From NCBI GenBank assembly GCA_030949385.1, contig JAUZSP010000007.1, forward strand, positions 131,210 to 195,209: a stretch of 64,000 nucleotides of DNA. Reading direction: 5' to 3'. Positions 58,467-64,000 of the stretch are shown piece by piece. The notes beneath the pieces are model-generated. The model saw only the letters and a program-made list of their open reading frames with translations. It was not told the DNA's origin and made no database searches. The DNA is from Gammaproteobacteria bacterium. GTDB taxonomy: Bacteria > Pseudomonadota > Gammaproteobacteria > JAUZRS01. How positions within the stretch are numbered: the stretch's first letter is position 1; every line of letters starts with the position of its first letter. Position numbers and translations under genes: made by a program.

Positions 58467-58496
58467 GCCTGTTTAAACTAGAAGCTAAATATACAC

Positions 58497-59721
58497 CAGG
58501 GCAAACGCATCAAATTAAGTGCCATTAAGTACTATTTTCAAATATTCCTCATCCCACCCTGCTCTTAAACGTTTATTTTTTACACCCAACTTTAAGCTCT
58601 TTTCCTGTTTAAGAAGGTTTAATGCCATATGCCTCATTACTGCAAAATTTTGTGCTGAATACCCCTTGCGAATTCGAGACTCATCTTCTCGAAAACTCAC
58701 ATCCAACTGCCAATGCAGTGAGTTTTCCACCCCCCCAGTGCTGGCGAAAAGATCGACCAAACAGTTCTGCGTTATTCTCAATGGAGCTAATGTAATAGCG
58801 GTGCTCTATCGTCGTTTTTCCCTTTACCGTTCGTTCGGATTCCACTCGGCCGAGGGTGTTTAAGGATGCCCACTGCTTGGCCTCTTCCAATGTCTCATCG
58901 CACGACAATGTCCAATGTCGTCGAATCTCCGTGCGATCTCTGGAAACCTCTTTCGTCTCATGATAACTAAAATCGCAACCTTCAAAGCCGTTTGTGTCCG
59001 CTTGATCAAACAGGGCTTCCACTGCTTTGGATAGTTTTTCCTGATTGCCTTTCAATGCCAGCAGATAATCCCCTTCTTGATCAATGATTTGCTGAGCAAT
59101 TGATCGCTGACAACCCATGGCATCAAGGGTGATAATACAGCCTTTGATCGCCAGCATATTGAGCAACTTGGGGATCGCCGTGATCTCATTTGACTTCTCT
59201 TCTGTTTTTACTTGCCCCAATACCAACTGATTTTCTACGCTCCACGCACTCACCATGTGGATCGCTTTTTTCCCCAGCCGCCGATCGTGAGAACGTCTCA
59301 GCGTCTTACCATCAATGGCAATCACACCTTGAACTAATCCCGCTATATCTCGAACCCACTCTGTAAAAAAACGCTCAAATGCCTCTGGGGAGAGCATGAA
59401 AAAAAGACGCCGAAACGTATCGTGCGATGGGATTCCATGGGGCAACTCAAGAAAACTTTCGAACCACGACTGCTTTGTTTGCCCAAACTCTTCAATAGAG
59501 TTCCAATCCTCAGCTCCACAGATGATCGCACAGATTGAAATCGCGATGATATCGACCAATTTGTGACTGCATTTGCCTTCGATTCGAGGATCAGGGATTG
59601 TACTGATATGCTTTATTAAAGATTGGGTTTGCATGAACGATTCTCGCTTGATTAGCTGAGAAACAATTATAACCCTATACTTTTCCCTTTTAAATCAATA
59701 CGTTTTCGTGCGTTTGCCCTG
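58497..59721 (-). mobile_element. ISAs1-type insertion sequence with perfect 13-bp ends
   Basis: The 1,225-bp element begins CAGGGCAAACGCA and ends TGCGTTTGCCCTG, perfect inverted repeats. It carries one transposase gene on the minus strand. The element is inserted 10 bp after the stop of the PLD-family gene and about 90 bp after the RMF-like gene. Confidence 0.92.
58515..59634 (-). CDS. ISAs1-family transposase, frameshifted in a C7 run
   Basis: DDE-type transposase. The first frame starts at 59634 (MQTQSLIKHISTIPDPRIEG) with FFTEWVRDIAGLVQGVIAID (first Asp), ITLDAMGCQRSIAQQIIDQE and ending in SFRQHWGG. The rest (VENSLHWQLDVSFREDESRI, Glu motif, then NFAVMRHMALNLLKQEKSLK) follows in another frame. 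One C fewer in the run at 58730-58736 joins them into about 372 residues. It may be active if the shift is a sequencing artefact. Confidence 0.9.
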
Positions 59722-59740
59722 AAATATACACCCCTAAATA

Positions 59741-61517
59741 TTACTCAATATCCTGAGGAGTTAAGCTATCTATATAAAGATGCGTCATTGAACTGCTACT
59801 AAGATCAAAATAAAATTTTAAATTACCTCCTAGAACAAACTTACCCTTTATTTTTTCAAGATCACTCTCATCCATTTCCAAACGACTCAGAGCCTCGTTT
59901 TTATCAAAAGCAATAATAACTCCATCACTTTCCAAACCATCCTTAAATTCAAGATTGTACCTTATTTTTGATGGTTCAATAAATACATATGGACACTCAT
60001 CTGACACCCCTTTATCCAATGATTCAACACTCCCATCAACACAAACAATATTCTTGTTAACAAGTAACTCTGACATTTCTGGGTATTTCATCGCCAAATT
60101 AAATCCTGTTATTTCACAATAGCTGTCCATACAACGATCCAATTCAGAACTACTGGATGCTTCTTGAATATCCAACACAATAGACTCCAGTTTCATGCGT
60201 GTATCTTCTTTGTACCTTGAAAGAGAGTCATACCCATAAATATTATGAATATCTTTATCCAACCCAACATCAAACCACCAAACCGATGGAATATTAAGCG
60301 ACACCTGCTTGTATCTTAGTTTTATTGCAAGCTCACACATAACCAATAAATTAATTTGATCAGAAGACAAAAGGCTAAATTCGCAATCATTCTCAGTCAC
60401 ACCACTATCACCAATCTTGTAGGGGTTAAGCAAAGAAACAATATCAGAACGCCCACTTATTTTATCAAACAATCTCTCTATTTTTCTATATGGGCTTCTT
60501 GTATCACTAATATCAAAATCAAACTTATCCAAGAATCCATCAATAGATGCCCTTTGGTATCCTGATAGCTCTCCTCCCTCATTATGAACCCACCCAAGAA
60601 TATACTCCCTTATTTCATCAGAGATAGATTCCCTATACTCAATATTTTTATACTTATTTCTAATCGAATTAATTTCATCTATAAAATCAATATAAATCCT
60701 CCCTATCGGATGATCTTCATTTAAAACACGACCTAGAGACCACCGCGAAGTAACCCACCCATAGGCATCCAATTTAATTGCAAAGTGCTTTTTAATTTCA
60801 TTCTTAAACTCCTTCTCTTTTTTCAACAGCAAAACCCTATCATCATCTTTTAAAACGGAAATACTGAGCGACCGTTTTGACTTTATATTTACCACACCCT
60901 CATCACCTGAATCAGACACCCTTAAATCAGAAATAATTTTTTTAATACCACTTGGGGATACAAAAATACACTGCCTCATTTTGCTTTCATCCAGCGCAAG
61001 AAACAACAACTCACTATAGAAGTGAGAATACATTGACTTTCTTATAATATCTTCAACTGAACTTTTCGCCTCACATTTCCCTATCAATTCATTTATATAT
61101 TCCATGCTCTTTTTTGTTTCAGCAATCGTCAACAAAACACCTGTTTCAATGTTTGACTTCACAGCCCTGTTAGTAAGATTACCAGACCCTAAATAAATAC
61201 ACATACTTTCTTTTGATTTAGCAGCAAACAATTTTGCATGCATCAATGGACTCTTAACGAGAGTGAATTTGAAATATGGCAATGTAGTCATATGAATTAT
61301 TTCATCCACCACCTCATGAAACGGATTAACCGATTCCATCGAAAAAATAACATTCACCACTGCTTTTTTTATTTCTTTTTTTCATCAAGTCCAGTATGTC
61401 TAAAACCAAATCTTTCGAAAAATATGCAAAAGCCAACCATAACTCATCAACATCTTCATCCTTAATTAAACTCTTCAGTTTTTCATAAGGAAAGCCATGC
61501 GTATACTCGTAATTCAC
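59741..61517 (-). CDS. PLD-superfamily protein, frameshifted near the N-terminus, possible defence nuclease
   Basis: The first frame begins at 61517 (MNYEYTHGFPYEKLKSLIKD) and includes LWLAFAYFSKDLVLDILDL; after the T7 run at 61364-61370 the frame changes. One base fewer joins it to AVVNVIFSMESVNPFHEVVD and gives about 591 residues. The PLD-like motif is MHAKLFAAKSKESMCIYLGS, then GNLTNRAVKSN; it has H-x-K and GS-G-N, but lacks the usual Asp, so catalysis is uncertain. Residues after about 190 show no known domain. Strong AT bias and the neighbouring IS suggest transfer. A stand-alone PLD defence gene is possible. Confidence 0.65.
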
Positions 61518-61668
61518 AAACCACCCCTTTTATAATTTAAAACACTATTCACAAATCACTTAAGCTAATCAACACTTATACCTCAAAGAGAACAAAATTA
61601 CCATAAAAAAATCACACCCCAAACCCACTCTCCCTTCACACTGTGCAAAAGCACACTCCACTCTGTTT

Positions 61669-61762
61669 GTTATCATCTGGCCATAGCCCCGCTGATGGAG
61701 GAAAGTAAGCCCATCGGAAACGCAGGGTGGCCTTCAGCGGCACTTACGTTTTATCCGATAAC
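61669..61762 (+). promoter_or_regulatory. Structured leader upstream of the bufferin operon
   Basis: Two alternative folds are visible. CCGCTGATGG at 61689-61698 pairs with CCTTCAGCGG at 61731-61740 with one mismatch. Then either GTTATC at 61669-61674 pairs with GATAAC at 61757-61762, or ATCGGA at 61713-61718 pairs with TCCGAT at 61754-61759; these share bases and exclude each other. GTAAG at 61705 can also pair with CTTAC at 61743. AGGAG of bufA lies 13 bases after the element. Confidence 0.5.
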
Positions 61763-61786
61763 CCCAAACACTCTAGGAGCGTAACA

Positions 61787-62047
61787 ATGAAAGCATCAAA
61801 AATCATCGCAGCCTCTTCTATGGCAACCGTATTGGCAGTTGGCCTGATGGCCGCTTCTGGCACTGCTCTGGCAGCAAAAGAAGGTTTTGAAAAATGCTCC
61901 GGCATCGTCAAAGCAAAACAGAACGATTGCGGCACCAAAAAACACGCCTGCGCCGGTCAAGCCTCCAATGACGGTGCCTCCACTGACTGGATCTACGTAC
62001 CCACCGGTACCTGTAGCAAAATTGTGAATGGCAAGGTGAAAAGCTAA
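61787..62047 (+). CDS. bufA1: Bufferin precursor (DUF2282)
   Basis: Secreted precursor of a copper-binding modified peptide. The start is ATG 61787, with AGGAG 7 bases upstream. The 86 residues have a signal peptide (about 1-30, ending GTALAA) and a core with four Cys (37, 48, 55 and 76) in [21 protein letters not shown] and VPTGTCSK. This is the DUF2282 pattern, in which DUF692 enzymes convert cysteines to thiooxazoles in known bufferins. The operon continues with bufB, bufC and a DoxX gene. Confidence 0.9.
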
Positions 62048-62131
62048 GCCCTTACGCTTTTTTTAAAACTTGAGGTTCTCTCCGCCTCAAGTTTTATTTT
62101 ATTCACAAAAAAACTCAATAGGCACAAAAAA

Positions 62132-62965
62132 ATGACTCAATCTCTCAGGGGTGTCGGTGTTGGCCTGCGTGTCGAACACTTCAACGAACTGCTTGAAAGC
62201 GCAAGCAACCCCGTGCCTTGGCTGGAAATACTGGCGGATAATTTTCTCTCTGCCGGAGGGCCAAGCATTCGCAATCTTGAGCGCGTGGCACAACGTTACC
62301 CACTCAGTTTTCACTGTGTCGGCATGTCTCTCGGTTCCACCGACCCCATTAACAAAGCCTATTTCAAACGCCTAAAAGAGCAAGTAGACCGTTTTCAACC
62401 CGCGCTGATCTCTGACCATCTCGCTTGGGTCAGTGTCCACCACCGCTATCTACACGATTTAATCCCCCTGCCCTACACTCAAGAAAGTCTGGCGCACATG
62501 GTCAGCCGCGTTCAGCACGCACAAGAGTTATTGGGTCGTACTATTATTATTGAAAATCCATCGGCTTATTTAAGTTTTAAAGAGAGTGAAATCAGCGAAA
62601 CAGAATTTTTACGCCAATTACACCAACAGACCGACTGCGGCTTATTAATAGACGTTAATAATATCTACGTCAGCGCGGTCAACAACGATTTTTCAGCTCA
62701 TGATTATTTAAATGACCTTCCCGCCTCAGCGGTGGCCGAACTTCATCTGGCCGGTTACGAAGAGCAAGCCGGTTATCTGTTTGATAGCCACGGACAACGA
62801 GTGCATCAACCGGTCTGGGATCTCTATCAACAGGCCTTGCAACGCTTTGGCGACACCCCCACCTTAATCGAATGGGACACCGACATCCCCCCCTTTAGCG
62901 TTTTAGCCGAAGAGGTGGCCAAAGCGCAAGCCTACCAACAGCAGTGCCAAGAGGTTGAAGCATGA
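62132..62965 (+). CDS. bufB: Bufferin modification enzyme (DUF692/MNIO)
   Basis: Multinuclear iron-dependent oxidase that modifies cysteines in the precursor. The 277 residues have RYPLSFHCVGMSLGSTDP, LISDHLAWVSVHHRYLHDLI, ENPSAYLSF, LLIDVNNIYVSAVNN and HLAGYEEQAGYLFDSHG, with the His, Asp and Glu ligands expected for the iron cluster. The TIM-barrel family name is DUF692. It overlaps bufC by four bases. Confidence 0.92.
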   Translation: MTQSLRGVGVGLRVEHFNELLESASNPVPWLEILADNFLSAGGPSIRNLERVAQRYPLSFHCVGMSLGSTDPINKAYFKRLKEQVDRFQPALISDHLAWVSVHHRYLHDLIPLPYTQESLAHMVSRVQHAQELLGRTIIIENPSAYLSFKESEISETEFLRQLHQQTDCGLLIDVNNIYVSAVNNDFSAHDYLNDLPASAVAELHLAGYEEQAGYLFDSHGQRVHQPVWDLYQQALQRFGDTPTLIEWDTDIPPFSVLAEEVAKAQAYQQQCQEVEA

Positions 62966-63738
62966 CCTCCCTCGTCGAATTACAAAACGCCTTTGCAGAA
63001 GCCGTTTTTGCCCCTGCCGACGATCAGCACCCAATTGTGCAGCAGATCGACAGCAAACATGGCCCCGCTGCCACCGAGCGATTAAACATTTATCGAGACT
63101 CCATTTTAAGCAGCTTCAGCCGTGTTTTAGCCAGCACCTATCCGGTCATCGAAACACTCTTGGGGGAGGAGTTTTTTGCTGCAATGGCACGCCACTACGC
63201 CTCCCTAAGCCCCTCTTTACAGCCCGATCTGGGTGAATTTGGTCGTCAGTTTGCTGAGTTTTTAACCGAATTTGAGCCGGTAAAAGAATTTGTGTATCTG
63301 CCCGACGTGGCGCGCTTAGAGTGGTTATGGGAAGAGGTCTTTTACGCCGCTGACGATGCCGAAGCCAATTTTGCAGCCTTGGCAACCTTAAGCAACGAGG
63401 CACTGCAAAAGGTACGTTTTACTCTCTCCGCCTCAGCACGCCTGCTGCACTCCCCTTATCCTGTGCTGGCCATTTGGCAGGCCAACCAAAAAGGTGAAGA
63501 GAACGCTGAAATTGATCTTGATAATGGCGGCGATCAACTGCTGCTGCTCAGACAAGGCGACGAGTGCCGCATGGATCGCCTCACCCCAGCGGAGTGGTCA
63601 CTGCTCAACGCCCTGCATTCGGGTCACTCTTTTGCACAACTGGTCGAGCTTGCCGGTGGTCTTGAAGCACTGAATAAAACATTACCCCTCTACGTGCAAC
63701 GGGGTTGGATTGTCGGTTTAAATTTAACTCACCTTTAG
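62962..63738 (+). CDS. bufC: Bufferin partner protein (DUF2063)
   Basis: DUF2063 protein of 258 residues that presents the precursor to the DUF692 enzyme in known systems. It starts MTSLVELQNAFAEAVFAPAD and contains RLNIYRDSILSSFSRVLAST and YPVIETLLGEEFFAAMARHY. The overlap with bufB (ATGA) shows tight coupling. It is 13 bp before the DoxX gene. Confidence 0.9.
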   Translation: MTSLVELQNAFAEAVFAPADDQHPIVQQIDSKHGPAATERLNIYRDSILSSFSRVLASTYPVIETLLGEEFFAAMARHYASLSPSLQPDLGEFGRQFAEFLTEFEPVKEFVYLPDVARLEWLWEEVFYAADDAEANFAALATLSNEALQKVRFTLSASARLLHSPYPVLAIWQANQKGEENAEIDLDNGGDQLLLLRQGDECRMDRLTPAEWSLLNALHSGHSFAQLVELAGGLEALNKTLPLYVQRGWIVGLNLTHL

Positions 63739-63750
63739 GAGTAAATTAAT

Positions 63751-64000
63751 ATGTCTGCTTTACATCTGATCGCCAAAACCTGCGAAAAAGGCAGCAACGT
63801 TACCGCTTTATTAAGCCCCTTATTGGATTTTGGTCTGCGTTTTTGGGTCGCCTACGCCTTTTTTCTCTCAGGTCTGACCAAAATTCAGAGCTGGAGCACC
63901 ACCGTGATGCTGTTTGAATACGAATACGCCGTGCCACTGCTCTCACCCGTGACCGCCGCTTGGACAGGTGCAGCCACAGAATTAATTTTACCTATTTTTT
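63751..64000 (+). CDS. DoxX-family membrane protein (start of gene, cut by window end)
   Basis: The ATG at 63751 follows TTTAGGAG. The visible part (MSALHLIAKTCEKGSNVTAL, then LLDFGLRFWVAYAFFLSGLT and KIQSWS) matches the N-terminus of DoxX-like proteins that close bufferin and gig operons. The rest lies beyond the right edge. Its exact function in these operons is not known. Confidence 0.85.
   Translation, partial: MSALHLIAKTCEKGSNVTALLSPLLDFGLRFWVAYAFFLSGLTKIQSWSTTVMLFEYEYAVPLLSPVTAAWTGAATELILPIF

Follow-up and report, generated by a model that had tools for sequence, protein, structure and literature searches.

What do the four co-directional genes at the 3′ end of this stretch of DNA make, and what sets the level at which they are expressed? 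The genes, bufA, bufB, bufC and doxX, all have open reading frames, and an earlier note had taken them for a bufferin-type (gig) operon. We analyzed them in the window (the whole stretch of 64,000 nucleotides, G000:C7:131210-195209), in the extended contig (L002, C7:188000-204000) and at the corresponding locus (L033) of a congeneric sister species, the one further genome that we found for this genus. The best overall explanation, to which we assign a probability of about 0.9, is that they form a Buf1-type bufferin (gig) operon whose exported, modified BufA peptide would bind excess copper in the periplasm. The operon is of the ordinary bufferin kind, and two features give it modest interest, a hairpin between bufA and bufB and a two-component pair downstream.

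The operon encodes a complete set of bufferin genes

The profile searches against DUF2282, DUF692 and DUF2063 that the earlier note had proposed all succeeded, and together with DoxX they give four Pfam matches in the order claimed, each above its curated cut-off. The precursor gene bufA (61787..62047, + strand) encodes a Buf1/DUF2282 protein of 86 amino acids (PF10048, E = 8.5e-21, 74.1 bits against a cut-off of 22.4). As the earlier note had it, the precursor carries four cysteines and no more (C37, C48, C55 and C76), and their spacing, C-x10-C-x6-C-x20-C, is the commonest in the family (101 of 164 DUF2282 ORFs). The BufA precursor contains no EGKCG repeat. Judged by eye, its N-terminus resembles a signal peptide with n-, h- and c-regions as expected. 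The likely start codon is the ATG at 61787, which has an AGGAG upstream; the ORF list gives an in-frame GTG at 61727.

The second gene, bufB (62132..62965, + strand), encodes a multinuclear non-haem iron oxidase (MNIO, formerly DUF692) of 277 amino acids (PF05114, MbnB_TglH_ChrH, E = 1.8e-104). The protein passes the NCBIfam equivalog model NF050167 MNIO_BufB (“MNIO family bufferin maturase”) with 365.5 bits (cut-off 310), whereas its scores with the HvfB, MbnB, ChrH and ApyH models stay under their respective cut-offs. The best match among its solved relatives is 3bww (E = 5.2e-44), followed by the DUF692 chain of 8hci and MbnB structures. Nine metal-site residues (H61, H96, E141, D174, H205, D218, H220, E247 and D249) do not vary among the 149 homologues aligned. 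In the numbering mapped in this analysis, Val follows GLR and Thr follows EWD, not Arg and Phe. PMC12668002 links these two positions to substrate class and states that MNIOs of the DUF2282 type lose conservation there; the Val/Thr pair fits this statement and thus supports the Buf1 assignment.

The start of bufC (62962..63738, + strand) overlaps the bufB stop by 4 nt. Its product is the DUF2063/PME1 partner protein of 258 amino acids (PF09836, E = 6.2e-22, 78.1 bits against a cut-off of 27.2). The fourth gene, doxX, follows after 12 nt, and only its 5′ part lies inside the window (63751..64000, + strand; DoxX match of this fragment, E = 6.6e-07), as the earlier note had recognized. Extension of the contig gave the complete gene, which encodes 155 amino acids (L002 6961-7428; PF07681, E = 3.6e-15, 56.8 bits against a cut-off of 23.6). 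The partner and DoxX proteins score 61.4 and 45.2 against the NCBIfam HvfC-family and HvfX models, below cut-offs of 142 and 80 that were built for another subgroup.

On its sequence, the operon is thus of the Buf1 (gig) type, an already known kind and a new example of a large described family. The gene set equals the published bufferin core of precursor, MNIO, DUF2063 and DoxX genes, which PMC12452194 reports for Buf1 and Buf2 bufferins numbering in the thousands. The genome contains a single DUF2282 match and a single MNIO gene, and DUF2282 is present in 96 of 369 sampled genomes of the same class. The operon is kept in the sister species, with codon differences that are mostly synonymous (45 synonymous and 8 non-synonymous in bufB).

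A terminator-like hairpin separates bufA from bufB

The description of the operon as joined by overlaps and short gaps is right for bufB/bufC and bufC/doxX, but bufA and bufB lie 84 nt apart. A consensus scan places an intercistronic terminator-like hairpin in this gap (62064..62096, + strand), with a 13-bp stem, a 7-nt loop and a T-rich tail. At one position of the stem, G-C replaces A-U in the sister species; both partners have changed, and the stem is kept.

We surveyed 106 non-identical BufA-MNIO operons, with the two congeneric operons counted separately, and found a hairpin after bufA in 14 of them, where dinucleotide shuffles predict 2.5. Operons with gaps of at least 60 nt account for the excess (11/25 versus 1.8 expected). 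Gaps shorter than 20 nt occur in 62 of the 106 operons, and one of these 62 has a hairpin. The listed hairpins differ in sequence, which suggests that they arose repeatedly.

The strength of the hairpin, its T-rich tail and the concentration of such hairpins in wide gaps would all be compatible with a full terminator, in which case bufA would be a transcription unit of its own and bufBC-doxX would have a separate promoter. The consensus scan, however, returned no promoter-like match in 61500-64000, and the gigPABT genes of Cupriavidus form one transcript by RT-PCR, so that we consider full termination somewhat unlikely. We favor partial termination, or protection of the bufA transcript end, either of which is likely to result in more precursor than enzyme. 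Terminator-like hairpins are perhaps a recurrent way to make the precursor exceed the enzyme. The passages of the bufferin literature consulted make no mention of such hairpins between precursor and enzyme genes, and their presence in a minority of bufferin operons is a useful addition to the described family.

The leader, its left border and the search for a promoter

The region upstream of bufA (61640..61786, + strand) is identical to that of the congeneric genome at 136 of 147 positions. As this value (92.5%) is near that of the coding genes, the conservation alone says little. The leader starts with a perfect inverted repeat, TGTGC-AAAA-GCACA (TGTGCAAAAGCACA, 61642-61655), and similarity to the sister genome, which begins at 61640, stops just left of this repeat. 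The palindrome was rejected as a regulon box because no second site in the genome matches it with one mismatch or fewer; it could be a site that serves this single operon. A known riboswitch was likewise rejected, with no Rfam match at E values up to 1 and a folding z-score of −0.31 relative to shuffled sequences. By eye, no leader-like sequence was seen upstream of other DUF2282 genes, and the genome holds no second copy. A leader stem, CCGCTGA/TCAGCGG, is weakened without compensation in the sister species. An upstream ORF of 29 codons (61695-61784, translated by hand) that ends just before bufA was discarded because a 1-nt deletion breaks its frame in the sister species.

Left of the leader is an insertion hot spot (window ~58480-61640), which lies between a small gene downstream of a pyrimidine-phosphorylase-like gene and the bufferin operon, and where the inserts of the two congeneric genomes are unrelated. 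Left of TGTGCAAAAGCACA, this genome has an IS and a PLD-like gene, and the sister genome has a nitrilase-family gene together with an HTH ORF. The DDE transposase (DDE_Tnp_1 and the associated N-terminal domain; 58681-59634 and 58515-58781, − strand) looks frameshifted, its C-terminal part apparently continuing in another frame, and the sister genome lacks this stretch. The PLD-like gene (59741-61360 and 61326-61517, − strand) gives weak DrmC/ZacB matches among defence models and is possibly broken, its apparent N-terminal piece being in a different frame.

The consensus scan finds no sigma-70-like promoter in the leader. A promoter of the sigma-F type, GTAACC-N16-CGAA (from PMC3511200), gave one match with two mismatches, against 0.68 expected by shuffling; this match, which is not conserved and leaves too little room before the bufA start, was rejected. 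The earlier note had suggested that extension of the contig might reveal a sigma/anti-sigma pair. On the anti-sigma side this expectation was not borne out: NrsF, the anti-sigma factor that goes with control of the sigma-F type, is absent from the whole genome (97.97% complete), and a two-component pair is attached downstream instead. NrsF occurs in some Buf1 clusters and is an optional feature, so its absence leaves membership in the family unaffected.

A two-component system follows doxX

The observation that no regulator is seen stands for the window; on the contig, a histidine kinase/response regulator pair directly follows. The kinase gene (HisKA_3/HATPase; L002 7415-8959, extrapolated to window positions 64205-65749) overlaps doxX by 14 nt. 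About 1 nt after it comes the gene of a NarL/LuxR-type response regulator (to L002 9686, extrapolated to 65751-66476), whose product has a receiver domain and a LuxR-type match below the Pfam cut-off. A gene for an OmpA-family protein (L002 9742-10410, extrapolated to 66532-67200) lies 55 nt farther on. The gene order and the overlaps recur in the sister species.

Whether the pair belongs to the operon or is an independent neighboring unit, with bufferin expression controlled otherwise, is in our estimate an even question. Considering (i) that none of 10 loci with homologues of the pair in other gammaproteobacteria (response regulators 50–59% identical) adjoins bufferin genes, (ii) that bufferin operons show no excess of kinase genes around them (9 per Mb within 2 kb, against 16 per Mb at greater distances), and (iii) that third codon positions of the pair are 0.95 identical between the two species, compared with 0.83–0.87 for bufABC, a hint of a different history, the two units may well be separate. 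The 14-nt overlap of the kinase start with the doxX stop, the lack of a forward sigma-70-like promoter just before the kinase gene and the preservation of the layout in both species argue against separation.

The absence of enrichment led us to reject the linkage as a general bufferin trait; we regard it as a lineage-specific variant with a plausible, putative regulatory role. A fuller proposal is that the operon dispenses with the usual sigma/anti-sigma control and has its own two-component system, whose dCache sensor could bind copper or loaded bufferin through its invariant Cys/His/His/Asp set in a closed loop, while the hairpin would set the precursor-to-enzyme ratio. We hold this combination to be unlikely. 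Searches of a literature made up mostly of papers open without subscription found nothing relevant on two-component systems with links to bufferins or DUF2282. A lineage in which such a system is joined to the operon is a second useful addition to the described family. Should the pair be regulatory, its junction with the operon would offer a simple test of sensing and feedback in bufferin production.

Two side observations concern this gene string. The contrast in third codon positions suggests that different histories meet within it (L002:7415-9686). Homologous NarL-type pairs in other gammaproteobacteria adjoin HbpS-like (haem-related) or DsrE-like genes (L109:3779-4273, L110:10820-11335, L108:8106-8561), which is a lead to the signal.

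The kinase sensor is a dCache-like domain with an invariant Cys/His/His/Asp set

A PDB search with the full-length kinase was dominated by kinase cores, and the sensor part (L002:7502-8230) was therefore modelled alone, from 12 sequences (pLDDT 83, pTM 0.83). Along its full length, the model matches dCache sensor domains from chemoreceptors and kinases: the top VIA-align row has a Z of 15.1 with an rmsd of 4.2 over 213 aligned residues, rows within 1 Z being tied, and the top Foldseek match has an E value of 1.3e-05. C124, H144, H151 and D153 are invariant in all 12 kinases, whose sensor parts are, the sister species apart, ~22–28% identical. This invariance makes a metal or haem site possible, and the four residues are a candidate for one on sequence grounds. 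The kinases that share them are mostly without bufferin linkage. Separately, this dCache family with its invariant Cys, His, His and Asp is common to kinases of different catalytic types (relatives L096-L099 and L101-L106).

Proposed function

We propose the following model. BufA would be made with an N-terminal export signal and recruited by BufC to BufB, an iron oxidase. By analogy with characterized relatives, BufB would convert the central BufA cysteines to thiooxazoles, the outer two would form a disulphide, and the mature peptide would bind excess copper in the periplasm. DoxX would act as a membrane accessory, whose precise role the model leaves unspecified. The hairpin probably stops most transcripts after bufA, or shields the bufA end, so that precursor outnumbers enzyme. 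A long transcript likely continues into the kinase/regulator pair, which may return a signal from the periplasm to the operon. The sequences directly show the gene families, the conserved active-site residues, the layout of the operon with its conservation, and the hairpin with its paired substitution; control by the pair and a stoichiometry or attenuation set by the hairpin are inferred.

Periplasmic copper sequestration by Cys-derived thiooxazoles is the role best supported by analogy, and the thiooxazole chemistry, copper binding, copper protection and copper response are all taken from characterized relatives. According to PMC12452194, the Caulobacter Buf1 bufferin carries copper-chelating thiooxazoles, and the characterized Buf1 peptide acts as a chelator of Cu(I)/Cu(II) and allows better growth when copper is in excess. 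Related Buf1 operons in Cupriavidus and Legionella respond to copper and gold. The modified cysteines of the earlier note agree with this picture; its secreted peptide calls for a refinement, in that the characterized bufferins act in the periplasm rather than having a demonstrated release from the cell.

The same machinery might here serve a soft metal other than copper (Au, Cd, Cr or Hg) or another stress such as redox stress. Chromate and cadmium induce the Caulobacter DUF2282/DUF692 operons via sigma-F (PMC3511200), the Cupriavidus gig operon responds to gold besides copper, MerC-bufferin fusions hint at other metals for some bufferins (PMC12452194), and the attached kinase sensor is of the dCache type, which often binds small molecules and is not a known copper sensor. 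Against this stand the copper chelation and the growth benefit in copper excess of the characterized Buf1 peptide, and the Caulobacter deletions, which gave no Cr or Cd sensitivity (PMC3511200). We consider another metal improbable and retain copper as the target.

Comparison with known systems

Among the closest described systems are the Buf1 clusters, both those of Caulobacter vibrioides (CC3254-3257) and the wider family in PMC12452194, which have the same four families in the same order. The four-cysteine precursor with a putative export signal and a BufB that passes the equivalog model are shared with them. Unlike these clusters, the present operon has neither NrsF nor a conserved sigma-F-type promoter, and it has an 84-nt bufA-bufB gap with a hairpin and a kinase/regulator pair overlapping doxX.

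The oxazolin/fontiphorin (HvfABC/FonABC) captophorin clusters likewise combine an MNIO and a PME1 partner that install thiooxazoles. Their precursors have EGKCG repeats, whereas BufA here has none, and the HvfB, HvfC and HvfX models all score below cut-off, which places the operon outside the oxazolin/HvfABCX group. The MNIO here differs from HvfB in its score (248 against a cut-off of 360) and in lacking the Arg/Phe pair that PMC12668002 links to Lys-Cys substrates. The gigPABT operon of Cupriavidus metallidurans and the GIG operon of Legionella have the same gene content as the present operon and respond to copper and gold there; the Cupriavidus operon is accompanied by a divergent ECF sigma/anti-sigma pair, rpoQ-rsqA, in contrast to the two-component system found downstream here.
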